Assembly: GCF_024204645.1 (NCBI RefSeq)
Contig: NZ_CP100351.1
Location: 3,002,001-3,066,000, forward strand
Direction of reading: 5' to 3'
From: Desulfomicrobium sp. ZS1
GTDB lineage: Bacteria > Desulfobacterota > Desulfovibrionia > Desulfovibrionales > Desulfomicrobiaceae
Length of the DNA stretch: 64,000 nt
Shown here: positions 13,609 through 44,732 of the stretch, piece by piece
How the letters are laid out: each line of letters starts with the position of its first letter
How positions within the stretch are numbered: the first letter of the stretch is position 1
Notes under the pieces: generated by a model
Told to the model about the DNA's origin: nothing
What the model saw: only the letters and a program-made list of their open reading frames with translations
The model's database searches: none
Program-made: the position numbers and the translations under genes

Positions 13609-13652
13609 CTGTCACATCTTTGTCACATTCGCCTCAACATCCTGTAACAAAC
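13609..13652 (+). promoter_or_regulatory. Pho box upstream of pstS
   Basis: CTGTCACATCT is followed 11 bp later by TTGTCACATTC, and a weaker CTGTAAC unit lies at 13642, two periods further. This matches the PhoB direct-repeat pattern (CTGTCAT spaced by 11 bp) about 70-110 bp before pstS. Confidence 0.85.
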
Positions 13653-27314: not shown

Positions 27315-28319
27315 TTATGCGTTGGGTCCAAGGATGCGGCCGATGCTCTCACGCACCCGCACGTCCGTTTCCACCCAGGGACGCCCCAGCCAGCTCGAAA
27401 AGCGGCTGCCCGCGTCCCCGCGAAACTGATTGGCGACCAGATCCGGGCTGAATTCGACCCGGCCCGGCTCAAAAATGAGCACATCAAGAGAACTCCCGGG
27501 CCGGTACAGGCTCTTGGGCTGCCCCTTGCGCAGGAAAAGACCGGGACGCATCCGCTCGCACGGCTCGTAGCCGCTGCCCGCATAGGCCTGCACGATCTGG
27601 CCGATCATGAGCGCCGCCACCTCGACCATGGCCACCAGGCCGCAGCCGCTGCCGCCCGGAACATCCGTGTCGATGACCGTGACCGCGCGGCGGTTGCGGG
27701 AAAATGGCGTGACCTCGCTGATCACGGCGGCGGGGTTGCAGGAATGGAAGGCGCCTTCGATCTCGTAGAAATCGCGCACCACCCCGCTGACCGGAGCGTG
27801 ATTGTAATGATACTTGTCCGGGGTGAGGCGAAAGATGGCAAAATCACCGCCCGTGAAGGACCAGACCCAGTTCGGCCGCCCCAGAAACTCCGCAAAGGAG
27901 AAGAACTTGTCCTTGATGAAAAGCACGCTCCCCTGGCTAAGCGACCCCGCAAACATGCGCGAGTCGGCGGGCGAGACCACGTCCAGAGGGTCGTCGCTCA
28001 TGGGCCGAACCTCGTCGTAGCGGATGCGGCGCTCGAAAATACGGCGGGCCGTGGTGTAATAGGATGCGTCCTCCACGCATTCCGAAAGATCGATGCCCAG
28101 ACGCCGGATGAGCGAATTCGCGCCCGAAATGCGCGCCCCCAGCGGCAGGTCGTAGTTCATGAACCCCAAAAGGCTCGATGCGCGGCCCGATACCACGGCA
28201 TTGAACAGGAACGGAGCCCGCTCCCTCACCCGTGAATACAGGTAGCCGATGGCCCGGTCGCAAAAAAGTTCCTCGTCCCGGATCTGCCCGGAATCTCTAG
28301 CTATATACTGATGCGTCAT
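27315..28319 (-). CDS. Phosphatidylserine decarboxylase-like pyruvoyl proenzyme
   Basis: 334 aa from ATG 28319, with GGGA upstream. It has the family pattern: VVSPADSRM (Asp119 of the triad), FRLTPDKYHYNHAPVSG (His171/His174), and RPGSSLDVLIF in place of the LGST cut site, giving predicted cleavage between Gly275 and Ser276 to make the pyruvoyl cofactor. The family turns phosphatidylserine into phosphatidylethanolamine at the inner membrane. It is a longer, divergent member and overlaps the upstream 801-aa gene by 23 bp. Another decarboxylation substrate is possible. Confidence 0.75.
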   Translation of the reverse strand: MTHQYIARDSGQIRDEELFCDRAIGYLYSRVRERAPFLFNAVVSGRASSLLGFMNYDLPLGARISGANSLIRRLGIDLSECVEDASYYTTARRIFERRIRYDEVRPMSDDPLDVVSPADSRMFAGSLSQGSVLFIKDKFFSFAEFLGRPNWVWSFTGGDFAIFRLTPDKYHYNHAPVSGVVRDFYEIEGAFHSCNPAAVISEVTPFSRNRRAVTVIDTDVPGGSGCGLVAMVEVAALMIGQIVQAYAGSGYEPCERMRPGLFLRKGQPKSLYRPGSSLDVLIFEPGRVEFSPDLVANQFRGDAGSRFSSWLGRPWVETDVRVRESIGRILGPNA

Positions 28320-30702
28320 GTTTTTTTCCCATTTTTTGTCCACTCAAGCGGGCATTTTCGCTGTGCATGCCGATGACAAGAAGCAGGAGCTGGATCAGCA
28401 CCGGCCGACACCCGCCCAGCTCGCCCGTGCGTTTCAATTCCGTGCGGGCCTCGCGCGCGAACTCCATGATGTCCCGTCCGCCGAGCAGCGCGGGGAGCCC
28501 GGTGCGGCAGAACTGCGCGGGCAGACATCCGAAATTCTTAACCGTCTCGCAGTCTTCCAGAAGATAATCGAGGGCTTCGGCAAGATGCGAGCGCCGCAAT
28601 TCCCCTCTATAGACCGCCTCAGCCCCCATGTTGAAGTCCTGCGCGCGCAGGGCCAGCGGGGTGCGCGCTCCGGCATGGTCCAGAATGCGCCGGGTCAGCT
28701 TTCCCCCGGCGCCGTGTTCCGGGTCCGTGATGCGGGCGCGCAGATCGCGCAGAAGCTCACCCGCCCCGAAAAGTTCGATCACATCCCGCCCCTCGGATTC
28801 GATGAAATCGAGCAGCGCCATGCGGTACTCCTGCACATGCACGCGCAGGTTGCCCGGATAGCGATGACTGCCCCGGACGCGGGACGCCCTGGATACGAGG
28901 TCGAGCAGCAAGGCGTTGCCCGAATCCCGGCGTACGAAAAAGGTGGGCAGGTTGATGGCCGTGGCAAAAAATATCTGTCGCCGCTCGCTCTCCACTTCCG
29001 GGCTATCGGGAATCGAAGACCGGCTGACGCGGCCGCCGAGCACAAGCTTGCAAGCAAGCGCGCTCAGGAACTGCTGCAAGCGGGCGGCAGGCCGCAGGTC
29101 CGCCTCCAGGGAATCGAAGAGGCTGTAGAACCTGGCCTCGAAACCGGAAAAACCCATCACCCCAAACGAGCGCTGCTTGTAGAGCAGGTAGGTCGACATG
29201 GACTCGTGAAAAACGCCCATGGCTGCAAGGTCGCGCTTCAGCCGCAGGTCGTTGCCGACCTCGCCGTCCAGGGCCGCGCAGCGATGGGTGCTCATGAGTG
29301 TAGTCATGTAATCGAGCAGCCGAAAATCCGGGATGAAATCGCCACGCAGGCCAAAAACCCGGGCGATGGTCCGGTCCATGAGCGGAGGGCCGAAGGGGGT
29401 CAGGGGACGGCCGCAGACTTTAAGCTTGGCCTTCTTCTTCCAGCGCCGCCAGATCATGCGCAGGTGGGTGTAATCAAGCTCGTGCGGCAGGAACCCGAGC
29501 GCCTTTTCCGGATGGAAATCCTCGAAATCCATGCGCATGGGAGCTGCGCTGTAGGTACCGACAAAAAGCGGCAGAAAATGTTCCATGATCTTGATGACCA
29601 GATCGCCCAGATATTTCTCGTCGGCCGCGCCGAAATCGCCGCCGCGCATGAGTTCTCCCAAGCGCTTGCTGCCAAGGGAGATATGCGTCCCGTTGTTGGC
29701 CAGGCAGGTGTTGGAGGTGTTGGGCAGAACGACCAGATTGTTGGCCAGGATACCGGATTCGCGCAGCTTGGCGATGGTGTTCAGCTGACTGCGCGAGAGC
29801 ATGCGGTGGCACAGGCCCATGTATTCCTTCTTGGCCTCGCCCCGGTCCCAGCCCGACAGGCACGGGTTCATGAACAGCTCGCGGTAATGGGCGTCGGGGA
29901 TGATCTCGTTCAGCCGCTTCTGCCGGGCCGGCGGCAACGGGGCGAAGTAGATCATGGCCCGCTGGCCGTGATCCAGCAGCCCGAACCGTTCATTGGCATG
30001 GTCGAGGAGCAGCTGGGACAGCAGGAAACGCTGGCTGGTTTCCCGGGCGATGCCGCGCCCGCCTTCGAACGCCTCGTTCATAGGCGCGGGATAAAAGGAA
30101 AAGGTCTCGGGGGAGGTGTTGTCGTTCAGGAAATGGCCGAGAAAGGATTCCGCCAGCTTGCGCACCTCGGCGCTCACCCCGGACCCGGCCAGATCGGCCA
30201 GGGAGAGCTTCAAAAGATAACTAATGGGGATGCGCAGCCAGTCTTCGCCGTCTTTCACGAAGAAGAAATCCGCGCTGTCTTTCCTGCGCCCGGAGGCCGG
30301 GTCGCTCTTGTCCGCCAGCAGGTCCCGCTCCAGGGTGTGGCGGGCAAAGGAGTTCAGCCGGGTCAAGGGAAAGCGCACCCAGCTGTTTTCCCAGACAGCG
30401 CCCGGCCCGGCCTGCAGATAGCGTTCAAGCTCAAGCAGAGTGTGGCTGGAGGTATCCCCGGCCACGGTGCGGCGGGCCACGTTCTGGTAGAAACTCGATT
30501 CGCGGATGCGTAGCGGCAGATCAACGGATTCCGGGCTGCCCATGACCGCGACCTGGAGTTCGCTTTCGCTTCCGGCCGTGGCGTCGTCAGGGCCAAAAGG
30601 GAGCAGGTCCACTAGGCGGTCGTTCCAGACACCTTCGAATCCCATCTTCCCGGCCAACCGCCCTTCCATGCCCGCCTGCATCATTGTCGTATCGAAAAAC
30701 AT
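28297..30702 (-). CDS. 801-aa conserved-looking protein of unknown function
   Basis: The ATG at 30702 follows AAGGTGGT; two GTG codons just upstream lie inside that ribosome site. The protein is soluble, with no signal peptide or clear membrane segment, mixed alpha/beta, rich in Arg and Leu. A central patch NLVVLPNTSNTCLANNGTH and a GGKLTRRI segment stand out, but no known nucleotide-binding or catalytic motif is evident. It heads the operon with the PS-decarboxylase-like, Lgt-like and secreted proteins, and a Pho box lies 60 bp upstream. A role in lipid or envelope change under phosphate limitation is inference. Confidence 0.7.
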   Translation of the reverse strand: MFFDTTMMQAGMEGRLAGKMGFEGVWNDRLVDLLPFGPDDATAGSESELQVAVMGSPESVDLPLRIRESSFYQNVARRTVAGDTSSHTLLELERYLQAGPGAVWENSWVRFPLTRLNSFARHTLERDLLADKSDPASGRRKDSADFFFVKDGEDWLRIPISYLLKLSLADLAGSGVSAEVRKLAESFLGHFLNDNTSPETFSFYPAPMNEAFEGGRGIARETSQRFLLSQLLLDHANERFGLLDHGQRAMIYFAPLPPARQKRLNEIIPDAHYRELFMNPCLSGWDRGEAKKEYMGLCHRMLSRSQLNTIAKLRESGILANNLVVLPNTSNTCLANNGTHISLGSKRLGELMRGGDFGAADEKYLGDLVIKIMEHFLPLFVGTYSAAPMRMDFEDFHPEKALGFLPHELDYTHLRMIWRRWKKKAKLKVCGRPLTPFGPPLMDRTIARVFGLRGDFIPDFRLLDYMTTLMSTHRCAALDGEVGNDLRLKRDLAAMGVFHESMSTYLLYKQRSFGVMGFSGFEARFYSLFDSLEADLRPAARLQQFLSALACKLVLGGRVSRSSIPDSPEVESERRQIFFATAINLPTFFVRRDSGNALLLDLVSRASRVRGSHRYPGNLRVHVQEYRMALLDFIESEGRDVIELFGAGELLRDLRARITDPEHGAGGKLTRRILDHAGARTPLALRAQDFNMGAEAVYRGELRRSHLAEALDYLLEDCETVKNFGCLPAQFCRTGLPALLGGRDIMEFAREARTELKRTGELGGCRPVLIQLLLLVIGMHSENARLSGQKMGKKHDASVYS

Positions 30703-30761
30703 GCGCACCACCTTGTTTCACTGCCTTGAACATATATATATGAAGGGGATGCGAAGAATCC

Positions 30762-30779
30762 GTGACCGGACAGTGACAG
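30762..30779 (-). promoter_or_regulatory. Pho-box-like repeat for the lipid-gene operon
   Basis: On the minus strand CTGTCAC-TGTC-CGGTCAC shows two heptamers 11 bp apart, the PhoB spacing, 60 bp before the 801-aa gene. An AT-rich TATATATA tract near 30732-30740 could be the -10 region. Confidence 0.65.
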
Positions 30780-30811: not shown

Positions 30812-30829
30812 CTGTCACCCAAACGTCAC
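30812..30829 (+). promoter_or_regulatory. Pho-box-like repeat for dedA
   Basis: CTGTCAC-CCAA-ACGTCAC on the plus strand has the same 11-bp period, 44 bp before the DedA gene. With the minus-strand box it makes a back-to-back arrangement in one 170-bp intergenic region. Confidence 0.6.
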
Positions 30830-31469: not shown

Positions 31470-32741
31470 TCAGGACGCGCTCTCCGGGGAGACAACAAGC
31501 GCGGGCGCGGCCTGCGGTGGCGCGAAGCGCGCCAGTTTTTCCGTGCGCATGGGTTTGGTGCCGTCAAAGAAATCGCAGGCCATGTAGTAGCGCAGGTCGG
31601 AAAACCAGAGGCCGGGCAGATCCGGACGGGACGAGAACCTGCGCAGCACTTCAAGCGGATTGGAGAGCGCCATCCCGAAGGGACCGAGCAACTCGGACGG
31701 GTCGCGGAAGCATTCCCAGTCGCAGCGCCGACAGACCGGCTCGCCGCCCGGCAAATCCGTAAGCTCCCAGAAAGGGCCGAGGTCCTCCGCGCTGCGGTAG
31801 CCGCACGGATAGGCATGCCCGGCCGTGGCATCCACGAAAAAGAAGTCCAGGCCTCCGCGACAGGCGTACGTTTGCCCGCCTTCCCCATCCGTCTGCCGCA
31901 CAAGGGCGTCCAGTGAGGACAGCGGCGTGAAGAGGCGAATGCGCGACCTGAAGTCCGGCACGACATCCTTGAGCGCCAGCAACATGGCCCTTTTCTCCTC
32001 GGGGCTGAAACGGATGAAGGAATCCGAGGATGTGGCCTGGTAAACGGCACGATCTTCATCACTCATGGGGTAGCAACAATTGGCGATAGTGAAACCAAGG
32101 TTCGTCGCAAACGTGAAAAAACGGGTGAAGGCCTCGAAAAAGCCCTGCTGAAATCCGTGCGCATCAAAAGGGCCGTGCAAGGCCGGAATATGACCGCCGC
32201 AAAGACGGTTGATACCCAGATTGACCGAAGGGTAAAGGCCGCTCTGGTGAAAAATGGGCAACGCCTTGGCCATGCCCCGCACCACGCCGGGCAGGCCACG
32301 GTTTGTCTCATGGATGTCCGAGTCGCTGGAATCGAGGCTGATCCAGAAATTGCGGATGCCGCTCTCGAGCAATTCATCGGCCGTGCGGCGCATGCGGTCC
32401 TCAAAATCCGAGGCCTCGTGGCGCTGAAAGATAAAGCCGTTGGTGCCGGTGCGAATGTAGGGGATGCCGAGCTTTTTGGCGCTGCGGATCATGCCGGTCA
32501 GACGCGGCAGATCAAGCAGAGGTTCGCCTCCGGTAAACGAAACGGCCTGCATGCCAAGCCTGGCCACAGTATCGAGAATGCGGTCCACGACCTCCGGGTC
32601 GAGACTGTGGCGGGCAAAGGAATGATCGATGCTCATGCCGCATTGCACGCACCGCGCATTGCAGCGGGTCGTGATCTGGATCACGGCCTGGCCGGGAAGT
32701 CGTCCCCGGAACAGGGCGCGACAGGTGGAAAGAAACTTCAT
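31470..32741 (-). CDS. Radical SAM enzyme with C-terminal Cys-rich (SPASM-like) region
   Basis: 423 aa from ATG 32741, preceded by CAGGAG. The cluster motif CNARCVQC (CxxxCxxC) lies near residue 26, followed by the SAM-binding FTGGEPLLD. The C-terminal part has CRGGLDFFF, PCGYRS and CRRCDWECFRD, which could bind a second iron-sulfur cluster as in SPASM proteins that modify peptides or act in cofactor making. The substrate is unknown. It starts 46 bp after the HU-like gene and may be the last gene of the GAK-type operon. Confidence 0.8.
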   Translation of the reverse strand: MKFLSTCRALFRGRLPGQAVIQITTRCNARCVQCGMSIDHSFARHSLDPEVVDRILDTVARLGMQAVSFTGGEPLLDLPRLTGMIRSAKKLGIPYIRTGTNGFIFQRHEASDFEDRMRRTADELLESGIRNFWISLDSSDSDIHETNRGLPGVVRGMAKALPIFHQSGLYPSVNLGINRLCGGHIPALHGPFDAHGFQQGFFEAFTRFFTFATNLGFTIANCCYPMSDEDRAVYQATSSDSFIRFSPEEKRAMLLALKDVVPDFRSRIRLFTPLSSLDALVRQTDGEGGQTYACRGGLDFFFVDATAGHAYPCGYRSAEDLGPFWELTDLPGGEPVCRRCDWECFRDPSELLGPFGMALSNPLEVLRRFSSRPDLPGLWFSDLRYYMACDFFDGTKPMRTEKLARFAPPQAAPALVVSPESAS

Positions 32742-32787
32742 GCAAAACTCCTGCGGGCCTAAAAACCCAGGAATGCCGGGCCCAGGT

Positions 32788-33198
32788 TCATGAATTGAGA
32801 AGCTCCCGGAGTACCTTGCCCGTCTTGAAATGAATCCGCCGGCGAGCCGGAATAGTGATGGTTTCCCCGGTGCGCGGGTTCCGCCCCATGCGCGCGGCAT
32901 GGAGCATCACGGAAAAGGAACCAAGCCCCGGCAAAGAGAGTCCTTGGCCTTGGGCCAGAGCTTCGCGGATGATCGCGTAGAAGGCCTTTTGCGGGGAAGA
33001 ATGGGAGTCCTGGGTCGTATGGGACAAATGGGACGTATGTTCTGCTGTGAGTTCCGTATTTTCATACGTCTCGTTTATCTCATTCGCCTCATGAGACTCA
33101 TTCACTTCATTCGTCACATTGGTCTCATAGGTCCCATTCGTCCCATTTTCTTCCGCCTGCGGCTCTTCCTTCAGCTCATTTTTTTTTTGCTTCGTCAC
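32788..33198 (-). CDS. HU-like DNA-binding protein with Asn/Thr/Glu-rich N-terminal tail
   Basis: 136 aa if started at the GTG 33198, which has no clear ribosome site and overlaps the amphi-Trp gene by 23 bp. Residues 1-65 are a low-complexity tail (TNGTYETNVTNEVNE type), encoded by degenerate short repeats. Residues about 68-136 match the arm and dimer region of HU/IHF: LSLPGLGSFSV, ARMGRNPRTGETITIPARR, IHFKTGKVLRELL. The N-terminal helix of HU is shortened. An A10 run at 33179-33188 could allow slippage from the amphi-Trp frame (see findings). Confidence 0.75.
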   Translation of the reverse strand: MTKQKKNELKEEPQAEENGTNGTYETNVTNEVNESHEANEINETYENTELTAEHTSHLSHTTQDSHSSPQKAFYAIIREALAQGQGLSLPGLGSFSVMLHAARMGRNPRTGETITIPARRRIHFKTGKVLRELLNS

Positions 33199-33487
33199 CC
33201 AGTGGGCTCGAAGGCAAAACCGGAGCTTGCTGTTGCGTCGCCACAGGGGTCAGCGGCTGCATTTTGTTCGGCACCCAGGAAAGCTTGAGCTCAAGCTTCT
33301 CCTTGTCGCTTTTCTGCTTGATTTCGAGCTCCGCCTCGATGCTGTCCGAAGGCCGCAGGATGAGGGGCCGCTCTTCATTGTCGAGAATGAGTGTGCCCTG
33401 CCTTAGGCCCGCGAGTACGGTTTCCAGATACGCGACCAGATCATCCCTGGTCATGATGTTCTTGGATTTGAGCTTGTCTTTACCCAT
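33176..33487 (-). CDS. Amphi-Trp domain protein of the GAK-type cluster
   Basis: 103 aa with AGGAGG before the start. The domain (about 12-75) has TRDDLVAYLETVLAGLRQG, ILRPSD and ELEIKQKSDKEKLELKLSW, ending in the conserved tryptophan that names the family. Function is unknown; such domains occur in one or more copies in GAK clusters. Its last codons are three AAA lysines in an A10 tract followed directly by TGA. It lies 19 bp after the CofD-like gene. Confidence 0.75.
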   Translation of the reverse strand: MGKDKLKSKNIMTRDDLVAYLETVLAGLRQGTLILDNEERPLILRPSDSIEAELEIKQKSDKEKLELKLSWVPNKMQPLTPVATQQQAPVLPSSPLGDEAKKK

Positions 33488-33506
33488 AAAATCCTCCTTT
33501 TAAGTA

Positions 33507-34697
33507 TCACGCCAGGGAAATGAGAGCCTGGCAGAGCAGATGCGGGTCGATGGCGCCGGTATTCGTGTCGGTCAGGGGAGTTTTAATGATCTGGATACCC
33601 AGCGAAGCCAGCTCCCGCTGCGGATTTTTCGTGTCCGCATAGGTCACGGACGGATCAAGCAGGACAAAATCGAGAACATCGCTGATGGCGATGCTGTCCG
33701 GGGCGTCGGCCCGCAGGTGACGCAGCAGGGTCCGGACCTGGCCCGCCAGAGACAGCCCGATCGATTCGGGGTCTTCGAACGTGTTCGGAATGAACACCTT
33801 GGGACAGGGCGTCTGACTCACGGCCTGCCCGACTCCGCGGGGCAGCAGGTTGGCGACGATGGAGCTGTAAAAACTGCCCACCGGGTAGCAGATGAGGTCC
33901 GCGCCCTGGATGGCTCTTCGGATCTTGTCGCGGATGAGCGGCCGCACCGGGGCGTTGCCCTTGGCCGGATCGACAAGGGACAGCTCGGACACGGCGCGGG
34001 TCAGAGGGGGAGTCTCCTTGCCGGTCAGCAGGTGCTGTCCGACGAGATGCCCCCCGCCCTCCAGCACGGCCCGAAGTTGCAGGTTGGAATTGATCAGCAG
34101 GCGAACTTCCCCTCGCACCTGAACCAGCTTGGAATAGATGTAGACAATGGGGTCGATGTGCCGCCTGTTCTCGAGATACCCGGCGGTCAGGATGAGGTTG
34201 CCGACGCTCGCCCCGCGTAGGTCGAAATCCGGGCCAATGGATTTCTCGAAGAGCTGCAGGTGATGGCGGATGATCTTGCGCATGGGATCCGACACCCGGG
34301 TGATGAGCGGGTGACTGCCCCCGACCAGGGCGGAGAGTTCGTCCTGCAGCTGTTCCGGACTGGCGGTCCTCGGCAGGCGGTGGGCAAAAAGCTCGAAAAT
34401 TTCTGGGTATCCGTGCAGGGTGCGATCGGCCAGGGCCATGAGCCGATTGCGCAGGTCGCCCACGGCCGGCATGTCGAAATAGCGCCGCAGCACGGCCGAA
34501 CTGCCGCCCGAATCAAACGGCGTGACCAGATGCACGGAGTTGTGGGTGTATCCGACCAGGGCCTGGCTGGTTTCCTTCAGCGCCGTGCCTCCGGTGAAAA
34601 ACAGGATTCGCGGCCCCAGGTCCGGGCTGCGCTGCGCCCTGGCCACGCGCACCGGATCAGGGACATTGACCTCCCGGGTGACCCGTATCGCCGTCAT
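33507..34697 (-). CDS. CofD-like (YvcK-related) protein of the GAK-type system
   Basis: 396 aa. The N-terminal TGGTALKETSQAL and PFDSGGSSAVLRRYF match the phosphate/nucleotide-binding start of CofD/YvcK proteins; LRGASVGNLILTAGYL and YPVGSFYSSIVANLLP are further family motifs. CofD itself moves a 2-phospho-L-lactate group, but this subgroup is uncharacterised. Its start overlaps the kinase stop by 4 bp (ATGA), so it is translationally coupled within the cluster. Confidence 0.82.
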   Translation of the reverse strand: MTAIRVTREVNVPDPVRVARAQRSPDLGPRILFFTGGTALKETSQALVGYTHNSVHLVTPFDSGGSSAVLRRYFDMPAVGDLRNRLMALADRTLHGYPEIFELFAHRLPRTASPEQLQDELSALVGGSHPLITRVSDPMRKIIRHHLQLFEKSIGPDFDLRGASVGNLILTAGYLENRRHIDPIVYIYSKLVQVRGEVRLLINSNLQLRAVLEGGGHLVGQHLLTGKETPPLTRAVSELSLVDPAKGNAPVRPLIRDKIRRAIQGADLICYPVGSFYSSIVANLLPRGVGQAVSQTPCPKVFIPNTFEDPESIGLSLAGQVRTLLRHLRADAPDSIAISDVLDFVLLDPSVTYADTKNPQRELASLGIQIIKTPLTDTNTGAIDPHLLCQALISLA

Positions 34698-35764
34698 GTG
34701 CTCTCCAACAGGCGCAGACAGCCGGCCGCGGCCTGGTCAAAGTCCACGCCCCCGCTGATCTCGAAAACCCTGCACCCGCGCAGCGCCTTGGCATAGTCCT
34801 CGGCCGTGGGGGCATAGCCATTTTCGGCGGTGAAAAAGAGGCCGGTATCCTTCATGAAGGCGTCCAGCAGATCGTGCCGCTCGTTTATGTCGATTTCCCC
34901 GATGCGCGTGGGCGAGCCGTCCCGATGCCAGTTCAGCAGCACCAGATAGCGCATGGGGCACTGCAGGATGAAACGGTCCGAACCAAAGAGCTGATCGATG
35001 AGCGCGTCGTATTTATGCTCCAGGCTCCAAAGCTCCTCCGGGGACAGACTTTGGAATCGCACCGTGTCCTCGGGAGAGATTATGCCTGTCAGATCGGGAT
35101 TGTGCAGCGCCGTGCCTGGATTGATGCGCGGATGCTTGGCCACGCCGAACATGACCGGAGCAGGCGTTCCCGGGCTGATCATCAAGCGGTCGTTGCTGAC
35201 AAAGGTCACTCCCTTGCTGACCAGATGCAGGGCCAGGGTGGACTTGCCCATGCCCGAAAACCCGGCCATGGCCATGCCGGCCTCGCACACGGCCACTCCG
35301 GCGGCGTGGGCCAGAAGACAGCCGTCGTTCAGGTTGCGCTCGATGAAGCGGTTGTTGATGAAATTGACGACCTGGTTGGGATTGGCCTCGCAGTCGCCCA
35401 CGGCCAGATTCCGCCCTTTTCCGAACAGAAAGTGCATGCCGGTCAGGCGCTTGCGAATAACCCGCCCGCCTGCGACGTCGGCCCACTCCTCCTTGATCTT
35501 GGTCTTGCCCGGATCCGGCTGTTTGACCTGAAAAGAAAGCCCCAGCTCCGGGACCTCGGCCTGCAAAGCCGTGATGGTGATGTCCGCGTCCGCTGCCGAT
35601 TTCAGAAAGGGCCCGAAATACGTGGTCATTTCCCGGGCCAGATTTTCGGAATTGGTCACGATCCGAAAGCGGCAGTCGCCCATGCTCAGGCAGACCTGAT
35701 GCGGTGTCGCGATTCCGGCGCTCAAGAGATCCACGAGTTTGGCCAGACTGGTATCATCGTTCAC
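34694..35764 (-). CDS. HprK-related kinase (GAK type B)
   Basis: 356 aa from GTG 35764, with GGAG seven bases upstream; it overlaps the ATP-grasp gene by 11 bp. The P-loop GFSGMGKST is at about 168-176, followed by VSNDRLMI, as in HPr kinase/phosphorylase C-terminal domains. The preceding 150 residues include a conserved NFINNRFIERNL stretch. The protein substrate is unknown; no HPr gene is present. TIGRFAM-type descriptions of HprK-related kinase B place it in the GAK cluster, which matches this context (recalled, not searched). Confidence 0.85.
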   Translation of the reverse strand: MNDDTSLAKLVDLLSAGIATPHQVCLSMGDCRFRIVTNSENLAREMTTYFGPFLKSAADADITITALQAEVPELGLSFQVKQPDPGKTKIKEEWADVAGGRVIRKRLTGMHFLFGKGRNLAVGDCEANPNQVVNFINNRFIERNLNDGCLLAHAAGVAVCEAGMAMAGFSGMGKSTLALHLVSKGVTFVSNDRLMISPGTPAPVMFGVAKHPRINPGTALHNPDLTGIISPEDTVRFQSLSPEELWSLEHKYDALIDQLFGSDRFILQCPMRYLVLLNWHRDGSPTRIGEIDINERHDLLDAFMKDTGLFFTAENGYAPTAEDYAKALRGCRVFEISGGVDFDQAAAGCLRLLEST

Positions 35765-36626
35765 GAATCTTCTCCATGACGTAATCGGTGTACATGGCCG
35801 CCGCATCGAGCCCGCAGGCATCCTGGATGCCGCGGAACCCGCCGAAGGCGGAAACCTCGAAGACAACCGGGCCGGTGGCCGCTTCCACCACATCGACGCA
35901 GGTGAAATCGAGGTCGAAAAGGGCCTGGGCCTGTTCGGCCATACGCAGGGCCTCGGACGAAGGCGTGGCCGGAGCGTATTTGCCGCCCGACTCGGTGGTC
36001 GTGTTCCAGGCCCCGGTGCCGCAGCGGGCGTAGGTGGTCAGGTATTTGCCGCCGAGAAAAACAATGCCCAGATCCTGGCCTGGCAGCTCGATCTTCTGCT
36101 GCATATACATGATAGGGTTTTCCGCGTGAAAGGCCTCGATGGCGAGGCGTGCCCCGGCGCCGTGTTCAATGACCGTCATGCCCCGGGCCTTTGACGTGAA
36201 AAGCGGCTTGAACACCGCTGAACCGTAGCGCTCCACCGCGCCCAGCGCCTCGTCCACGGACTCGGTGATGGTCGTGGGCGGCATGGGAATATCCCCCAGG
36301 CGCAGGGTCACGGTGCAACTCAGCCGGTCCAGGACCCGCATGATGGACATAGGCGAGGAGAAAATGGACAGCCCGCGCTGCGCCAGAAAGCGCAGCACCT
36401 CAAGCCTGTCGAGAAGATCCGGGGAATAGCGCGCGCCGATCTTCTTGATGATGAGACCGTCAAGCCCGCCCAGATCGACTCCTTCGGTCCAGACCTTGCC
36501 CGCGTCCAGATCCATGCAGACCTGCTCCATATCCACCAGCAGACGAAACCCGGTCTTGGCGGCCACCGTGTCCGCAAGAAGTTCCGAAGACCACCCGCCG
36601 CGTGTACCGACCACTCCTATCTTCAT
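35754..36626 (-). CDS. ATP-grasp enzyme of the GAK-type system
   Basis: 290 aa with a RimK-like ATP-grasp layout: a short N-terminal domain (KIGVVGTRGGWSSE), then ATP-binding FKPLFTSKARGM near 140-150 and the metal-binding end VVFEVSAFGGFRG near 255-268. ATP-grasp enzymes join a carboxylate to an amine or thiol through an acyl phosphate; the substrate here is unknown. It lies 9 bp after the PhoU-kinase gene and overlaps the HprK-related kinase gene. Confidence 0.83.
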   Translation of the reverse strand: MKIGVVGTRGGWSSELLADTVAAKTGFRLLVDMEQVCMDLDAGKVWTEGVDLGGLDGLIIKKIGARYSPDLLDRLEVLRFLAQRGLSIFSSPMSIMRVLDRLSCTVTLRLGDIPMPPTTITESVDEALGAVERYGSAVFKPLFTSKARGMTVIEHGAGARLAIEAFHAENPIMYMQQKIELPGQDLGIVFLGGKYLTTYARCGTGAWNTTTESGGKYAPATPSSEALRMAEQAQALFDLDFTCVDVVEAATGPVVFEVSAFGGFRGIQDACGLDAAAMYTDYVMEKIRER

Positions 36627-36635
36627 AAGCGATTC

Positions 36636-38273
36636 CTAATAGTTGAGTATTTCCAGGGGGAAAGAGAACTGTGCCGGCGACTCAAGGCGGGCTTCCGTGA
36701 GCCGCTCCATGAGGAAGAGGCAGCGATTGTACATGGCGTGGGCAAAGGTCCGGTTCAGCTCGAACCGGGTCGAAGTATAAAACGATCTGGCCACGCCGAG
36801 CCCAAGGCGGATATCGAAGCTCTCGTCGCCATGGGCCTTGGCGAACGCCTTGCTGAAATCGTAAAAACTTTTGATGGTCGCAGTGATCCGTGCGCGCGAT
36901 CCCCGGTCAAAGGCAGGCAGCCGGAAATTGGACACAAGAAAAACCGAGACGTCCTGCACGTAGTCGGAATGCTGCGAACGGTGCAGATCGATAAAATACA
37001 CCTTCTGATCCAGGTGGTTGTAGATGACGTTATTGATGTTGAAGTCGCCGTGAATAAAAACCGAAAAGGGAGCCGGATATCTGACTTCGATATCCATGCA
37101 TCCCTTGATCAATCCACTGGCCGAGGGGATGGGCACGGAACCTATGCCCATGGCGGGACGCATGAGATCCGGGTGGACCTGCAGGATGGAGGACATGCGA
37201 TCCAGGGCCTGGCGCATCATGTTCGTGGGCAGAGCGACCTGGTTCATGGTCTGCTCCCAGACATGCTGTACGGTCTGCTCGAAGATGAACAGGGCGTTCT
37301 TGAGAATCTCCTCATCCGGGTTGAAGATGGCCTCATCCAGGGTGCAGCCGGACAGAAACTCGGTCAAAAGCGACGCGTTTTCCCCTTCTTCCTGATAGCT
37401 GAAGACTCTCGGGACCAGTCCGGGAAAAATTTCATTCCAGCATTCCAGATTGATTTTTTCCTGCCGGATCTTGCGCAGGTTGCCTTCCTTGAAAATGGAA
37501 TCCCTGGCCTGGGGAGTTTTCTTCCCTTCCACGCGGGCGATGCGGCAGCCCGAGCGCGAGCCCCAGATGCCCTGGAAATCCACATCCGTGACATCCCCCT
37601 GCAGGCCCGACTTGTTCAGGTTGCGCTGCAGGGCCTTGAACTGCTGGATCTTGATGCGCTCGCCAATGATGACGAAAAGCAAGGCTTCCCCGATGTTGAG
37701 CAGGCTATCGCCGATGCGTTCCAAATAACGGATGATAAAGAGCGAGGTGATATGATCCTCCACGTTGCGGCCAATGCGCAGGTGGATCATGATCTTGTCG
37801 AAGTTCTCCTTATACATGATATCAAGCTCGTCTTCCATGCGACAAATGGTCAACGCTCCGGAAAGATTTGCTTTTTGCAAGACAGGAAGGATCTCGCTGA
37901 CCGTCTCGTGGATTTTGAGAAAACTGTCCTTGTACTCAAAATTTTCCAAAAACCGGTGGGTCGACAGATAGCCCATCTGCTTGGCTATATTGACGCAATA
38001 ATCGCCGATGCGCTCCAGATTGATGGTGATGATATGCACGGCGCGCAGATACTTCATCTGATCCGGAGCCAACTTGGTCTGATTGAGCGTCATGAAACAT
38101 TTATTTTCAATGACGTTCTTCAGGTTGTCTATGTAGTCGTCCTTGCTGAATATCTTGTCATAGGTCGCTGGCGTCGGCTCCAGCAGGAATTCGAACGTGG
38201 CCTTGATCTGGTTTTGCACCTCCATGATCAGGAACCGAAAATTCTCATCGAGCCCTTCAAAACTTTTGAGCAT
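36636..38273 (-). CDS. PhoU domain fused to an aminoglycoside-phosphotransferase-like kinase
   Basis: 545 aa. Residues 1-215 hold two PhoU three-helix units with the metal-binding motifs NLERIGDYCVNIA (85-97) and YLERIGDSLLNIGEA (183-197). Residues about 240-530 form an APH-type kinase: phosphate-anchor region near 260-275, catalytic HGDFNINN (His408, Asp410, Asn415) and FIDLH (Asp429). PhoU units sense or relay phosphate-transport state from PstSCAB. The fusion suggests a small-molecule or protein kinase controlled by phosphate status. It is part of the GAK operon, which has a Pho-box-like element upstream. Confidence 0.88.
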   Translation of the reverse strand: MLKSFEGLDENFRFLIMEVQNQIKATFEFLLEPTPATYDKIFSKDDYIDNLKNVIENKCFMTLNQTKLAPDQMKYLRAVHIITINLERIGDYCVNIAKQMGYLSTHRFLENFEYKDSFLKIHETVSEILPVLQKANLSGALTICRMEDELDIMYKENFDKIMIHLRIGRNVEDHITSLFIIRYLERIGDSLLNIGEALLFVIIGERIKIQQFKALQRNLNKSGLQGDVTDVDFQGIWGSRSGCRIARVEGKKTPQARDSIFKEGNLRKIRQEKINLECWNEIFPGLVPRVFSYQEEGENASLLTEFLSGCTLDEAIFNPDEEILKNALFIFEQTVQHVWEQTMNQVALPTNMMRQALDRMSSILQVHPDLMRPAMGIGSVPIPSASGLIKGCMDIEVRYPAPFSVFIHGDFNINNVIYNHLDQKVYFIDLHRSQHSDYVQDVSVFLVSNFRLPAFDRGSRARITATIKSFYDFSKAFAKAHGDESFDIRLGLGVARSFYTSTRFELNRTFAHAMYNRCLFLMERLTEARLESPAQFSFPLEILNY

Positions 38274-38281
38274 GACACGTC

Positions 38282-38551
38282 CTAGGAGGTGATGGAAATT
38301 GTGCCGGTTGCCGGGGATTCATCGCTTTTGTCTTTCCAACTGACCTTGATGCCGAGCTTGTTCTCCGAGCCCTTCTTCTTCACCGACACCTCGAATTTCA
38401 TGTACCCGCCCGGATGCAGGCAGATTTCAGACCCCTCGGAGTTGAGCACGATCCGCCCCTCGGCAAATCCATCCTGCAAGGCCTGCAGATATTTCTGGAT
38501 GGTCCGGCTGTCCTGTACGGACTCGAATTCAAATTTATCGTCTTCAGACAT
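38282..38551 (-). CDS. Second amphi-Trp domain protein
   Basis: 89 aa, nearly all one amphi-Trp domain: SRTIQKYLQALQDGFAEG, then EICLHPGGYMKFEVSVKKKG and KLGIKVSW with the terminal tryptophan. It lies 8 bp before the PhoU-kinase start and is clearly related to the 103-aa protein at 33176-33487. Function is unknown; it may form a scaffold or partner for the larger enzymes of the cluster. Confidence 0.72.
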   Translation of the reverse strand: MSEDDKFEFESVQDSRTIQKYLQALQDGFAEGRIVLNSEGSEICLHPGGYMKFEVSVKKKGSENKLGIKVSWKDKSDESPATGTISITS

Positions 38552-38568
38552 AAGTATTCCTTTTTTTT

Positions 38569-39708
38569 TCAGCCCAGCAGGCGTTCGCGATATTCGCGGA
38601 TGACGATTTCCCGACTCATGCCCGAGAGGATGAGCCGCTTGGAGATCTCCAGGTCATCCCAGGCCGGTTGATAGCCGATCTCCCGATTCGCCTTTTCCGC
38701 ATTTTGCGACGTGACGGGTTTGACTTTCTCACCCATGTGGGTGTCATCGCCCATGAAGACCAGCTTGCGACGTGTGGACGGACCCGCGCAGGCGTTGACC
38801 CTGCCCACGACCGTGATCAGAAAATCCGTGTAGCGCTGCGACTGGGGGTTCCAGACCTCGTATCCGTCCACGTCGTAATCGGCCAGGAGAATGGGCCAGA
38901 ACTGTTCGGGATGCGGAATGATGATCCCTCCGCCTAGCGCCCGGACCTCCTCGATCACCTCCGATGTACGATAGAAATAACGCAGCGAAAAATGGGTCTT
39001 GACGATGGCCTTGACCGCCGAGAGATAGGTCTGGATGCGGCCTATGAGTTCGTTATCGTACACTGGCCGCAGCGCATCGAAATAGTTGCGCAGCAGCTTG
39101 TTCTTGAGAGCGTCCTGGAAAAGGCATGCGTGGTTTTCCTCCACCATGCGCTGCACCTTAGTCACGTGATGGCGCACGAATTCGACCAGATCCAGATCCG
39201 CCCCGGTCTCCCGGGCAGCCTGTTCGATGCGGTCTTCCAGCGGTGCCGTTATGGTGTGCATGAAATCAAAGAGCTGGGAGGCGCGGTAGGTCTGGGTGTG
39301 CCGGAGCATGGCGCGGAGCGTGTGGGCGTGTTCCAGACGGACCGTGGCGAAGTGCAACAAGAGCTGCACCTTCTGGTTGAAGCCATGGGAGTAGCAGTCC
39401 ACCTCCACGCCGCTGAAATCCCCGTACTCCAAGATCTCGTTATGCTGAGTCGGGATGATCAGATTCTCGGTCATGCCTGGGAACATGTTGTGAACGCGTT
39501 GTTTAATGACCGGCATGGGCACGAATTCCGGGTGCCAGTGCACGGCCATGACGCTTTGCTGCCCAGGAAGGACAAGTGGCGGCGAGGCCAGTTCCGTCAA
39601 TTTTTCCTCGCTCAGGTCCGTACTGATCACGCTTTCGAACACGGCGCGGTCCTGCGCGGTGATGGCCGGGTCCCAGCCCGCAGGATTCATGGGATCAAGT
39701 GAACGCAT
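38569..39708 (-). CDS. PHP-like metal-dependent hydrolase of the GAK cluster
   Basis: 379 aa from ATG 39708; a TTG two codons upstream is a possible alternative. Histidine/aspartate motifs spread along the chain, AVHWHPEFVP near 57, PTQHNEIL near 87, IIIPHPEQFWP near 275 and GDDTHMGE near 325, resemble the metal ligands of PHP-type phosphoesterases. No known substrate. It sits between the XXXCH and amphi-Trp genes with short gaps (9 and 17 bp). Confidence 0.6.
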   Translation of the reverse strand: MRSLDPMNPAGWDPAITAQDRAVFESVISTDLSEEKLTELASPPLVLPGQQSVMAVHWHPEFVPMPVIKQRVHNMFPGMTENLIIPTQHNEILEYGDFSGVEVDCYSHGFNQKVQLLLHFATVRLEHAHTLRAMLRHTQTYRASQLFDFMHTITAPLEDRIEQAARETGADLDLVEFVRHHVTKVQRMVEENHACLFQDALKNKLLRNYFDALRPVYDNELIGRIQTYLSAVKAIVKTHFSLRYFYRTSEVIEEVRALGGGIIIPHPEQFWPILLADYDVDGYEVWNPQSQRYTDFLITVVGRVNACAGPSTRRKLVFMGDDTHMGEKVKPVTSQNAEKANREIGYQPAWDDLEISKRLILSGMSREIVIREYRERLLG

Positions 39709-39717
39709 TTGCAAAAC

Positions 39718-40251
39718 CTATTTGTAGCGGTCGTGGCAGGATTTCTTGGCCTGGGCCAGTTCTTCGACCACCGCAGCCGTTGCGGCCTGGTCCTCGTGGT
39801 CAAAAGACGTGCGCAGACGCTCGCACATTTCCGCATACGCAGGATAAAAGTCATCACCGTATCCGTGATACGAAATCATCTTTTCAGAATCCGAAAGAAA
39901 AACCGAGACGATCTCACGCGAAGGCATCTCGCCGCGGGCAACGCTTTCTCGGATGGCCTTGAAATAGATCTGCATCCTCTTCTTGAGCTTCGAATAGCTC
40001 TCGCACACAACCCCCGACCCACACGGATCTTCTGCTCCGCAAACCTTGAGGCCCTTGCCCGTGAATTTCACTTCCAGGGCATCGTCCTGCCCCAGATCAA
40101 CCTTGACCTTGAACTTGACCAGTTCCGCAAGGCTGATCCCGTATTCGCCCAACTCATCGGACTCCTGCTCCAGGGTATCCGCCAGTTTGCGCAACAGGTC
40201 CGCGGCTTCGGCGCGTGAGAGCAGCCAATTGTGTTTCAGTTTCGATGCCAT
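39718..40251 (-). CDS. GAK-system XXXCH-type protein
   Basis: 177 aa. The N-terminal 75 residues resemble an amphi-Trp-like helix-strand region (LSRAEAADLLRKLADTLEQ, LVKFKVKVDLG), and the C-terminus ends AKKSCHDRYK, the CH signature for which the XXXCH domain is named. It is the first gene of the minus-strand cluster; AGGA precedes the start and the Pho-box-like element is 79 bp upstream. Function is unknown. Confidence 0.72.
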   Translation of the reverse strand: MASKLKHNWLLSRAEAADLLRKLADTLEQESDELGEYGISLAELVKFKVKVDLGQDDALEVKFTGKGLKVCGAEDPCGSGVVCESYSKLKKRMQIYFKAIRESVARGEMPSREIVSVFLSDSEKMISYHGYGDDFYPAYAEMCERLRTSFDHEDQAATAAVVEELAQAKKSCHDRYK

Positions 40252-40329: not shown

Positions 40330-40358
40330 GTGTCATTTGTGTCACAGTTCCGTGACAG
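40330..40358 (-). promoter_or_regulatory. Pho-box-like triple repeat upstream of the GAK operon
   Basis: On the minus strand CTGTCAC-GGAA-CTGTGAC-ACAA-ATGACAC gives three heptamers at an 11-bp period. It lies 79 bp before the GAK operon and 111 bp before the divergent PHP-glycosyltransferase gene, so it could serve either or both. Confidence 0.65.
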
Positions 40359-40468: not shown

Positions 40469-42880
40469 ATGATGCCACAGCGCAAAGCGGACATGCATGT
40501 CCATTCCAAGTTTTCCAGCAGGCCATCGCAATGGATCCTGCAAAAACTTGGCTGCCCGGAGAGCTTCACAGAACCAATATTCATTTATAATCAGGCCAAA
40601 GCGGCTGGCATGGATTTCGTGACCATCACCGATCACAACGTCATCGATGGAGGCCTGCACATTGCCCATCTGCCGGGAGTTTTTTTAAGCGAGGAGGTGA
40701 CCACCTATTTCCCGGAGGACCGCTGCAAGCTGCATGTCCTGGTCTACGGCATCACCGAGACGCAGCACGGCGAAATTCAGCGCCTGCGCGAAAATGTATT
40801 TGATCTGTGCGGCTACCTACGCAGGGAAAGTTTGGTCCATGCACTGGCCCATCCCCTGTTCGCGGTCAACGACACGCTCAGCATCGACCATTTCGAACAG
40901 AGCCTGCTCCTCTTTGACGTCTTTGAATTGAACGGTTGCCGCGACGAAATGCAGAACACGGTGCTGCGGTCGATCTTGGCGGATCTGGACCGGATCACGA
41001 TGGAGATCCTGGCCGACCGGCACGGGCTGGAACCGCTGGGGCGCACGCCCTGGAAAAAAGGCTTGATCGGGGGGTCCGACGATCATTCGAGCCTCAACAT
41101 CGCAAGCATGCACACCCTGGCCGAAGCGGACAGGCTGGATGATTTTCTCGGCGCGGTGCGTGATGGGCGGGGGCTACCGTCCGGTCGCGCGGCCACCGGA
41201 CATGCCCTGGCGCGAAATCTCTACGCCATAGCCTACCAATTCTACCGCGCCCGGACCAAACGTTCGCGCTCCAAAATGCTCTGCATGCAGTTCGCCGACC
41301 ACATGCTCGGCGCCGGCGAAACGTCCGGGGACGGCATTCTGGCCCGCCTGCACGCGGCCATCGGCACGCGCAAAAGCAGCACCTACCTGCGCCTGGCCGA
41401 TGCCGACGGAGTCAAGGCCGTACTCTTGAAAGAGGTGACCCGCATCATCGAGAACGACCCCACATTCACGGCCATCGCCAAGGGAGAACCGGGCGCGGAC
41501 TTTGACCAGGAGTGGTTCCGCTGCGTCGGCCAGGCCTCGGACAAACTCATCGCCACATTTCTGGACCGCCTGCTGACCAGCGCGATCGGCGCGGACATCT
41601 TCGACATTTTCAGCACCATCGGCACTGCCGGGTCGCTGTACGCCCTTTTGGCCCCGTATTTCGTGTCGTTCGGGCTCTTTGCCCGTGAACGGTCATTCAG
41701 CCGACAATGCGCCAAGGCTTTCGGACAGGCGAGGCCGCGGCCACTTACGCTCCTGCATTTCACGGATACGTTCGAAGACGTGAACGGCGTCTCCTGGACC
41801 ATCCGGCAACAACTGGACATGGCCCTGGAGCATGGCAAAGACATGACCGTGATCACGTGCGGCCAAGGAGATAACGCACCGGGGATCAAGGTCTTCGACC
41901 CCATTGGCACGTTCGCCATGCCCGAGTATCCGGAGATTTCCATTTCCTACCCTCCTTTCTTGCGCATGCTTGAGTACACGCTGGAAACGGACGCAAAACT
42001 CATCCTGGCCGCCACGCCCGGTCCTGTCGGCCTCGCCGCGTTGGCCATCAGCAAAATTCTGCACATCCCCATCCACGGCACCTACCACACCGCCTTCCCC
42101 CAGTATGTCGCGTCCCTGACCGGCGATTCAGGCCTGACAGACCTGACCCGCAAGTACATGGCATGGTATTACAAGCAGATGGACGTGGTTTATGCCCCAT
42201 CTTCGGCCATCGCCGAAGAACTGACGACCTTCGGCGTGGACCGCAAGGCCATCCGGGTATACCCGCGCGGGGTGGACACAGCGCGCTTTGATCCGATCAA
42301 GCGAAATGGCTTTTACAAACCTTGGCCAGGCATAGACTCTTTCAAACTGATCTATGTCGGACGGGTTTCCAGGGAAAAGGACCTGGACATCCTGGTAACG
42401 GCCTACAAAAGTGCGATCTCGCGGATGAACGGACACGACGTACACCTCGTCATTGTCGGAGATGGCCCTTACCGGACGGAAATGGAAAAGGAACTCCTCG
42501 GGTTGCCAGTGGTCTTCACCGGCGTGCTGCATGGCGAGGCATTGGCCGCGGCCTATGCCTCGGCGGATCTTTTTGTCTTTCCGTCGACCACGGACACATT
42601 CGGCAATGTGGTGCTGGAGGCCCAGGCATCGGGGCTGCCGGTCATTGTCAGCGACAGGGGCGGACCCATGGAAAACATCGATCCCGGCAAAACGGGCCTC
42701 GTCGTTCCCGGCCGGGACGCGGACAGTCTGGCCCAGGCCATGATCGAGCTGTGCGCCGATCCGCGCCGCGTCAAACGCATGGGTGAAGCGGCGCGTGTCT
42801 TTGCCGAAGAGCGCAGCTTCGGCTCCGCGTTTCTGGCCACCTGGGAACTCTACAAAGACGCCGCCCCGCCCGCCGCGTGA
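40469..42880 (+). CDS. PHP hydrolase fused to GT4 glycosyltransferase
   Basis: 803 aa from ATG 40469 with GAGG upstream; the open frame extends to 40046, but that part overlaps the divergent gene's start. The N-terminal PHP domain (about 1-245) has KADMHVHSK, TITDHNVIDGG, HALAHPLF and GGSDDHSS metal-ligand motifs. A helical section follows (250-400), then a GT4 family glycosyltransferase (about 420-800) with VNGVSWTIRQQ, GRVSREKDLDIL and the nucleotide-sugar motif STTDTFGNVVLEAQASGLP. GT4 members build glycolipids, mannosides or polysaccharides. A hydrolase-plus-transferase may remodel a lipid or glycan head group (inference). Confidence 0.85.
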   Translation: MMPQRKADMHVHSKFSSRPSQWILQKLGCPESFTEPIFIYNQAKAAGMDFVTITDHNVIDGGLHIAHLPGVFLSEEVTTYFPEDRCKLHVLVYGITETQHGEIQRLRENVFDLCGYLRRESLVHALAHPLFAVNDTLSIDHFEQSLLLFDVFELNGCRDEMQNTVLRSILADLDRITMEILADRHGLEPLGRTPWKKGLIGGSDDHSSLNIASMHTLAEADRLDDFLGAVRDGRGLPSGRAATGHALARNLYAIAYQFYRARTKRSRSKMLCMQFADHMLGAGETSGDGILARLHAAIGTRKSSTYLRLADADGVKAVLLKEVTRIIENDPTFTAIAKGEPGADFDQEWFRCVGQASDKLIATFLDRLLTSAIGADIFDIFSTIGTAGSLYALLAPYFVSFGLFARERSFSRQCAKAFGQARPRPLTLLHFTDTFEDVNGVSWTIRQQLDMALEHGKDMTVITCGQGDNAPGIKVFDPIGTFAMPEYPEISISYPPFLRMLEYTLETDAKLILAATPGPVGLAALAISKILHIPIHGTYHTAFPQYVASLTGDSGLTDLTRKYMAWYYKQMDVVYAPSSAIAEELTTFGVDRKAIRVYPRGVDTARFDPIKRNGFYKPWPGIDSFKLIYVGRVSREKDLDILVTAYKSAISRMNGHDVHLVIVGDGPYRTEMEKELLGLPVVFTGVLHGEALAAAYASADLFVFPSTTDTFGNVVLEAQASGLPVIVSDRGGPMENIDPGKTGLVVPGRDADSLAQAMIELCADPRRVKRMGEAARVFAEERSFGSAFLATWELYKDAAPPAA

Positions 42881-42951: not shown

Positions 42952-44139
42952 TCAAAGCCCGGTCTTGATGACCATGTCCGTGATCGGACCGCGCGAGCGT
43001 TCGCCCTTGAGCACGATGTGGCCGTAGCCCGGCAGGCCTTTGAGCATTTTGACGGTCCAGTTCAGACCGTTGTTGGACTCGTTCAGATAGGGGTTGTCGA
43101 CCTGGCGCGTGTCGCCAAGGCAGATGCACTTCACGTTCTCGCCCATGCGGGTCAAAAGCGCCCTTGTTTCGGCGCGTGAGAGGTTCTGCATCTCGTCGAT
43201 GATGACCACCGCGTTTTCGAGATTCATGCCCCGGATAAAGGCGATGGGCAGGATCTCGAAGCGTTTGGGGTTGAAGCGGAAATTGCCGCTCTCGCTGTCG
43301 GCGAAGAGGCGGTTGGCCGGGCGCAGGTCGTGCAGCTTCATGAGCAAGTCCCCCACGTAGCGCACATAGGGGGCCATCTTCTCCTCAAGATCGCCGGGCA
43401 GGTAGCCGAGCTTGGCGCCAATCTCAATGACCGGCTTGACGAGGTAGATCTTGCGGTAAGGGTTGTCCTTCTTCTCCAGGGCCATGAACAGGGCGGCGGC
43501 CAGGGCCAGGAAGGTCTTGCCGTACCCGGCCTCGGACTGGATGGTGACCAGGTTCACGGCATCGTCGAGCAGCAGCTCCAGAGCCAGGTTCTGATAGACA
43601 TTGCGCGGACGCACGTTCCAGACGTTATGCTGAAAGTCGATGACGCGGGGCCCGGAGGTGGCGTGCATGTATGGCTGGCCGCCAATCCAGGCGAAGCTGT
43701 TGGCTATGGGCGGTTCGCCCTCGCGCACAAAGCCGGTGTAGGACTGGGATTCGGAGCGGAACGGGTTGGAATCGCGGAACCCTTCGCTGGCGATGGCGTG
43801 GATGCGGGCCTTGAGCTGCAGGATGCGGTCGTTGGTGACCAGGATGGGCGCATCCACGCCGCTGTCTTTGAGTTCGTCAAGGATCAGTTCGTCGCCGTTC
43901 TTGCCCTCCGCGTCCGTGAAAATCCGGGGCGGAAGGAACTGGATGTCCGGGTCGTCCTGCAGCGCGGCAATGGCCTGGGCCACGATATGGGCCACGCGCG
44001 GCTCGCGCTTGAGCTTGTCCAGCTCCCGCAGGACGGTGTACGGCAGGATGACCCGGTTCTCCTGGCCGTTGCGCAGAGCGCGGATGCATTGGGGGTTGTC
44101 AATGAGCACATTGGTATCGAGTACGTAATTCTTCTGCAT
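42952..44139 (-). CDS. PIN-PhoH (PhoH2-type) RNA helicase/ribonuclease
   Basis: 395 aa. An N-terminal PIN nuclease domain (about 4-130: LDTNVLIDNP, VTNDRILQL with metal-binding acids) is joined to a PhoH-type P-loop ATPase (about 180-390: EAGYGKTFLAL as Walker A, VVIIDEMQNL as Walker B, GDTRQVDNP). Such proteins unwind and cut RNA. PhoH names come from phosphate-starvation genes, but no Pho box was seen here. It is convergent with the PHP-glycosyltransferase gene. Confidence 0.9.
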   Translation of the reverse strand: MQKNYVLDTNVLIDNPQCIRALRNGQENRVILPYTVLRELDKLKREPRVAHIVAQAIAALQDDPDIQFLPPRIFTDAEGKNGDELILDELKDSGVDAPILVTNDRILQLKARIHAIASEGFRDSNPFRSESQSYTGFVREGEPPIANSFAWIGGQPYMHATSGPRVIDFQHNVWNVRPRNVYQNLALELLLDDAVNLVTIQSEAGYGKTFLALAAALFMALEKKDNPYRKIYLVKPVIEIGAKLGYLPGDLEEKMAPYVRYVGDLLMKLHDLRPANRLFADSESGNFRFNPKRFEILPIAFIRGMNLENAVVIIDEMQNLSRAETRALLTRMGENVKCICLGDTRQVDNPYLNESNNGLNWTVKMLKGLPGYGHIVLKGERSRGPITDMVIKTGL

Positions 44140-44202
44140 GGACGGCTCAATCCTTAGGGGCTCATGCCCCGGTCCGGACCATTGACGGGAGAGGGCGGCC
44201 GA

Positions 44203-44604: not shown

Positions 44605-44732
44605 AGGCACCTCCGTTGTGTGTGGCCGTCGGTTCACCCGGAACACCCGGACCCAAACCTTTTGCCGTTGAAGCACCCTAGATCCGGCGTGTTGCGGGTC
44701 AGAGACGAAGGCGAGGAGGTTTCATGACAGAG

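Follow-up and report, generated by a model that had tools for sequence, protein, structure and literature searches.

A complete GAK operon in Desulfomicrobium with a PhoU-APH fusion and a predicted PHP phosphoesterase in its core and a predicted place in the Pho regulon

The genome of Desulfomicrobium sp. ZS1 carries a ten-gene GAK operon, which we analysed within a stretch of 64,000 nucleotides (contig NZ_CP100351.1, positions 3,002,001 to 3,066,000; hereafter the window). All five NCBIfam GAK families (TIGR04354-TIGR04358) scored above their cut-offs within this one operon, and the locus is a typical, complete copy of a widespread, already named but functionally uncharacterised gene set. Two of its genes, which encode a PhoU-APH fusion (KU) and a protein with a predicted PHP fold, are covered by no NCBIfam GAK model. 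The comparative results below place both in the GAK core and predict that the operon here belongs to the Pho regulon. Neither the core status of KU, nor that of the phosphoesterase, nor the Pho-regulon link was found described in the literature searched.

To define the GAK core, we drew GAK loci from whole genomes within the same phylum and order, together with 80 named loci found by an ATP-grasp profile search. Across 247 genomes of the order, KU was encoded in all 118 that have the GAK ATP-grasp, versus 1 of the 129 that do not (Fisher P ~1e-71, not corrected for phylogeny), and the lone KU-positive genome lacking the ATP-grasp is a draft assembly. KU lay directly upstream of the ATP-grasp gene in 75/80 named loci, in records labelled as Desulfobacterota lineages, Myxococcales, Nitrospina, Zixibacteria, Phycisphaerae, and alpha- and gammaproteobacteria. 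The encoded protein was a full-length PhoU-APH fusion in GAK loci across phyla, the alpha- and gammaproteobacteria included. Because of this co-occurrence and of an adjacency that spans phyla, KU is, as judged from sequence comparison, a core component of GAK that the family models omit. A first-pass annotation of this DNA had asked for a survey of PhoU-APH genes beside GAK, with lack of conservation to count against its reading; the pairing proved to be conserved across several phyla, and the fusion is a general feature of GAK and not special to this locus.

KU shares two N-terminal PhoU repeats with the PhoU signalling protein, and its nearest solved chains are PhoU. It differs from PhoU in being fused to an APH-type kinase, and a separate true PhoU is encoded in the same genome. 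Against the phoU_full model KU scored 93.3 bits, under the cut-off of 130.25 and thus below equivalog level, and alpha- and gammaproteobacterial KU sequences have a degenerate first PhoU repeat.

The minimal conserved set, found in the alpha- and gammaproteobacterial loci, consists of KU, the ATP-grasp, the HprK-related kinase B (HprK-B), two phosphatases and one class-1 amphi-Trp protein. The CofD-like protein went undetected in some GAK loci, and its sequence can be divergent. The HU and radical SAM genes, which the first-pass annotation had counted as parts of the system, were rejected as core members, as both were found beside GAK in near relatives only (HU in 9 loci, including the window). 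Automatic clustering of neighbouring genes was swamped by shadow open reading frames (ORFs) and was used for labelled families only. A split arrangement occurs in one genus (L008-L011, L046), with the ATP-grasp, HprK-B and CofD genes at one site and an XXXCH-PHP-amphiTrp-KU block plus a second, divergent HprK-B gene at another.

The phosphoesterase was recognised from its predicted structure. Profile searches against Pfam, NCBIfam and the PDB detected no match to the PHP gene. The AlphaFold2 model of its product (predicted local distance difference test, pLDDT, 89.5) matched 3e0f/3o0f/9etk with probability 1.00 in Foldseek, and VIA-align returned Z values of 14.6-15.8 to 3o0f (15.8), RNase AM and 2yb1. 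Residues H59, H61, H91, E104, D106, H121, H268, D323, D324 and H326 were invariant in 47 relatives and resemble metal ligands. The protein thus shares with the PHP phosphoesterases (3o0f, 2yb1, RNase AM) both the fold and metal-ligand-like invariant residues, but differs by a large helical insert and by the missing sequence match. The earlier label "PHP-like", unsupported by sequence models, is supported by the predicted fold, and phosphatase activity is predicted.

Fifteen loci from alpha-, gamma- and zetaproteobacteria lacked PHP and instead had a histidine phosphatase plus a calcineurin-like metallophosphatase between HprK-B and amphi-Trp. PHP occurred in 97 loci and the phosphatase pair in 15, with no locus holding both sets. 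Since the two are mutually exclusive, they probably do the same job, and we read the exchange as a non-orthologous replacement of one phosphatase step. A phosphoesterase (PHP here, the phosphatase pair in alpha- and gammaproteobacteria) is therefore a core part of GAK that is absent from the family models.

We then compared the kinases, the ligase and the CofD-like protein with their known relatives. The HGDxNxxN catalytic loop of KU was present in 122/122 homologues, and the P-loop, NDR and RxNPGT motifs of HprK-B were conserved in 115 homologues. As these catalytic motifs are conserved, both are predicted to be active kinases. HprK-B shares the P-loop, the catalytic Asp region and one conserved His with HPr kinase/phosphorylase, but the HPrK/P signature was found in 0/115 HprK-B sequences, the P-loop reads GKST and not GKSE (likewise 0/115), and the downstream RxNPGT motif differs. 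Its score against Pfam Hpr_kinase_C was 30.5, below the gathering cut-off of 33.3. The ATP-grasp has RimK/LysX-type ligases as its nearest solved structures and full-length profile similarity to RimK/MptN/LysX, but forms its own family, TIGR04356, in which EVSAFGGF replaces the usual EVN. The CofD-like protein, whose nearest solved structures are UPF0052 proteins, shares the CofD domain with the YvcK/CofD family (122 bits) but is likewise a family of its own, scoring under the YvcK cut-off. An F420-like cofactor was considered as a product and rejected, as CofE (F420 gamma-glutamyl ligase) was encoded in 0/24 GAK genomes.

The class-1 amphi-Trp protein carries a conserved (H/F/Y)ES(L/V)QD motif just ahead of a helix. 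The ESxQD serine was present in 98/112 class-1 sequences and in every alpha- and gammaproteobacterial sequence printed, making it a candidate HprK-B phosphorylation site. The predicted fold comprises a helix and four strands (pLDDT 84.5), and searches of the PDB with Foldseek and VIA-align returned no credible structural match, which does not in itself prove a new fold. The C-terminal helix in the profile of the XXXCH family is similar to the last helix of cytochrome c' (E ~1e-3) and, more weakly, to cytochrome b562; the XXXCH domain may thus form a four-helix bundle like that of heme proteins, minus the first Cys.

To assess the phosphate link, we scanned for Pho boxes with the published D. 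vulgaris consensus, an independent pattern that replaced an E. coli-like consensus and a position weight matrix derived partly from our own sites. The D. vulgaris PhoB box, derived experimentally, is a (c/t)GTnAC repeat with an 11-bp period (PMC3333781), and a PhoB site has been studied by electrophoretic mobility shift assay (PMC6456213). The repeat upstream of the GAK operon is an exact match to this consensus, and the same genome has exact boxes before pstS (96 bp) and phoB (81 bp) and ~112 bp from the start of a Na/Pi cotransporter gene. Genome-wide site totals were not above those of a reversed-pattern control (19 versus 17; 10 versus 14 in an earlier scan), and therefore position, not number, carries the argument. 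The GAK box was conserved in genus mates, with a diverged spacer. Among 120 GAK operons with enough upstream sequence, 17 had an exact box within 340 bp, where the locus-wide rate predicts 1.5, and none had the reversed pattern. Outside the genus the count was 9/112 versus ~1.4 expected (P ~2e-5), such P values being indicative, as loci of related species are non-independent and coding sequence makes up most of the background. A palindrome at the same place, TGTCAC-N6-GTGACA, was tried as a CRP-like site and dropped; GTNAC is self-complementary, and the palindrome therefore belongs to the Pho-box reading.

Phosphate genes were also found near GAK more often than expected. After clustering at 80% ATP-grasp identity, 10/97 independent lineages had pstB or phoU inside the retrieved locus (mean 17 kb), versus ~0.6 expected with one pst/pho locus per 4 Mb; an eleventh hit, in L125, was a KU fragment and was dropped from the count. 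In L063, phoB-phoR-pstB-phoU runs straight into XXXCH-PHP-amphiTrp-KU-grasp-HprK-CofD, and in L020 phoH and XXXCH adjoin the end of a pstS-pstC-pstA-pstB-phoU cluster that has phoB with it. The pstSCA operon of the window lies ~16 kb from GAK. The upstream repeat on which the first-pass annotation had based its phosphate link is thus real, conserved in the genus and enriched at other GAK loci, though not universal, and the operon here is predicted to belong to the Pho regulon.

Because the minimal set defined above balances kinases with phosphatases, the catalytic motifs are conserved and amphi-Trp carries the ESxQD serine, we favour a Pho-controlled module of reversible phosphorylation with KU and the phosphoesterase in its core and amphi-Trp as the HprK-B substrate, at a probability of roughly 45%. 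Under low phosphate, PhoB would switch the GAK operon, and the PhoU half of KU may form the link to the phosphate-signalling state. The kinase half of KU would phosphorylate a small substrate to which the adjacent RimK-like ATP-grasp could couple a second group, so that the two would make or sense a small phosphorylated molecule. HprK-B would phosphorylate amphi-Trp, as a carrier or regulator, at the ESxQD serine, the phosphoesterase would take the phosphate off again, and the CofD-like protein may serve as a nucleotide-sugar-binding or phospho-transfer partner. In this scheme the comparisons show the gene content, the place of KU and PHP in the core, the conservation of the catalytic motifs, the Pho boxes and the nearby pho/pst genes, and we infer the direction of regulation, all of the substrates, the role of PhoU and the choice of amphi-Trp as substrate.

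Several observations weigh against this scheme. No exact Pho box was present in the 340 bp tested upstream of 103/120 GAK operons, and KU and the ATP-grasp lie at separate places in 3 genomes of one genus. The fold predicted for amphi-Trp does not resemble that of HPr, and the idea of an HprK substrate comes from one conserved serine and gene order. HPr itself, encoded in 24/24 GAK genomes tested, could be the substrate of HprK-B, and the ATP-grasp could act on either a metabolite or a protein. The literature searched yielded no biochemical or expression data for any GAK protein. The data fit, but do not prove, the earlier suggestion that GAK makes or tags a phosphorylated small molecule or protein, and they disfavour an F420-like route.

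The strongest competing explanation, to which we give a little over one chance in three, is that the product of GAK is a phosphorylated small molecule (a cofactor, storage compound or metabolite). In that case KU and HprK-B would phosphorylate intermediates, the ATP-grasp would add an amino acid, and the CofD-like protein would use a nucleotide-activated donor as the source of a phospho-group that it transfers, with amphi-Trp as a scaffold or carrier. The ATP-grasp is closest to MptN/RimK/LysX and the CofD-like protein to 2-phospholactate transferase/YvcK, both known from cofactor or metabolite pathways; kinases of the APH type usually have small-molecule substrates, and one of the PHP relatives is an enzyme solved with AMP and phosphate. 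However, the conserved GAK core includes no dedicated precursor enzyme, the absence of CofE from all 24 genomes disfavours an F420-like product, and the CofD-like protein, which can be divergent, went undetected in some loci. A variant HPr kinase that ties phosphate status to the phosphotransferase system through HPr, with the amphi-Trp proteins as adaptors, is improbable: HPr is present in every GAK genome tested and HprK-B aligns with HPr kinase across the P-loop region, but all 115 sequences lack the signature and GKSE, the Pfam score falls short, and HPr lies outside the conserved GAK neighbourhood. An incidental phosphate link, in which the PhoU-like helices of KU only oligomerise and the pho/pst proximity is due to chance, would fit the fact that most GAK loci have neither pho/pst neighbours nor an exact box and the degenerate first PhoU repeat in alpha- and gammaproteobacteria, but is equally doubtful, as Pho boxes and pho/pst neighbours both exceed expectation in several separate lineages.

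The ten genes of the operon, their order and their tight packing were confirmed from ORFs, family models and, for PHP, the predicted fold, as the first-pass annotation had described them (Table 1). All lie on the minus strand and together span 31470-40251, with junctions that are overlaps or gaps of at most ~46 bp. Start codons are uncertain for HprK-B and the radical SAM protein; the HprK-B domain begins near ORF residue 50, and therefore the true start is probably downstream of the annotated ORF start. The HU-like protein has a repetitive Asn/Glu/Thr-rich N-terminal extension (32950-33198) ahead of its DNA-binding fold. As a candidate for anti-phage defence GAK was set aside, as PADLOC models match no core gene and the radical SAM protein is weakly viperin-like in a way typical of its superfamily.

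The surroundings yielded further observations. Beyond the radical SAM gene lies a pair of genes, of which the first (804 aa) matches no Pfam or NCBIfam family and the second is phosphatidylserine decarboxylase-like; two Pho-box-like sites lie upstream of the pair, which is also found near GAK in the distant lineages L019, L086 and L100. A divergent gene shares the Pho-box intergenic region, and its product has an N-terminus that looks PHP-like by eye and a GT4 glycosyltransferase C-terminus. It is possibly a Pho-controlled glycolipid synthase like D. alaskensis Agt (PMC5193443). In the genus, phoH and a DksA-like gene adjoin this glycosyltransferase gene, and phoH is also close to GAK in L015, L020, L021, L025, L070 and L107.

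Table 1. Positions within the window of the GAK genes, Pho boxes and neighbouring features.
Feature	Position	Strand	Description
XXXCH protein	39718-40251	-	TIGR04358 116 bits (cut-off 40), TIGR04354 34.5 bits; N-terminal amphi-Trp-like region and XXXCH domain
PHP-fold phosphoesterase (predicted)	38569-39714	-	fold comparison of AlphaFold2 model; no Pfam or NCBIfam match
amphi-Trp protein, class 1	38282-38551	-	TIGR04354 74 bits (cut-off 31); ESxQD motif
PhoU-APH fusion (KU)	36636-38273	-	PF01895 x2, 90.7 bits; APH 28 bits; HGDxNxxN
GAK ATP-grasp	35754-36626	-	TIGR04356 454 bits (cut-off 300); RimK/MptN-like ligase fold
HprK-related kinase B (HprK-B)	34694-35893	-	TIGR04355 564 bits (cut-off 200)
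GAK CofD-like protein	33507-34697	-	TIGR04357 542 bits (cut-off 340)
amphi-Trp protein, class 2	33176-33487	-	TIGR04354 65 bits (cut-off 31); no ESxQD motif
HU/IHF-like protein	32788-33198	-	PF00216 72 bits; low-complexity N-terminus
radical SAM protein	31470 to ~32741	-	PF04055 53 bits
Pho box CTGTCACGGAACTGTGAC (predicted)	40341-40358	-	11-bp-period direct repeat, 90 bp upstream of XXXCH start
Pho box upstream of pstS	13610-13626	+	in-window reference; 96 bp ahead of pstS
pstS	13722-14738		in-window pst gene
pstC	14823-16052		in-window pst gene
pstA	16062-17222		in-window pst gene
804-aa gene, then phosphatidylserine decarboxylase-like gene	27315-30711
Pho-box-like site upstream of this pair	30762-30779		one mismatch
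Pho-box-like site upstream of this pair	30813-30829		exact
glycosyltransferase gene	40469-42877		divergent from the GAK operon
phoH and DksA-like gene	42952-44676		adjoin the glycosyltransferase gene

Taken more broadly, GAK might be an undescribed phosphate-responsive signalling system of several bacterial phyla, in which KU and the HprK-like kinase are opposed by PHP or by the histidine phosphatase and metallophosphatase, and which would set the phosphorylation of amphi-Trp or make a messenger of phosphate status; this is a speculative and, on balance, unlikely extension. GAK genes have so far been names without a function, and the predicted Pho link supplies both a condition (low phosphate) and a regulator (PhoB) with which to seek their activity. 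Since GAK is carried by several culturable groups (Desulfovibrionales, Phaeobacter, Thalassovita and Gilvimarinus), a phosphate test of the system is practical.

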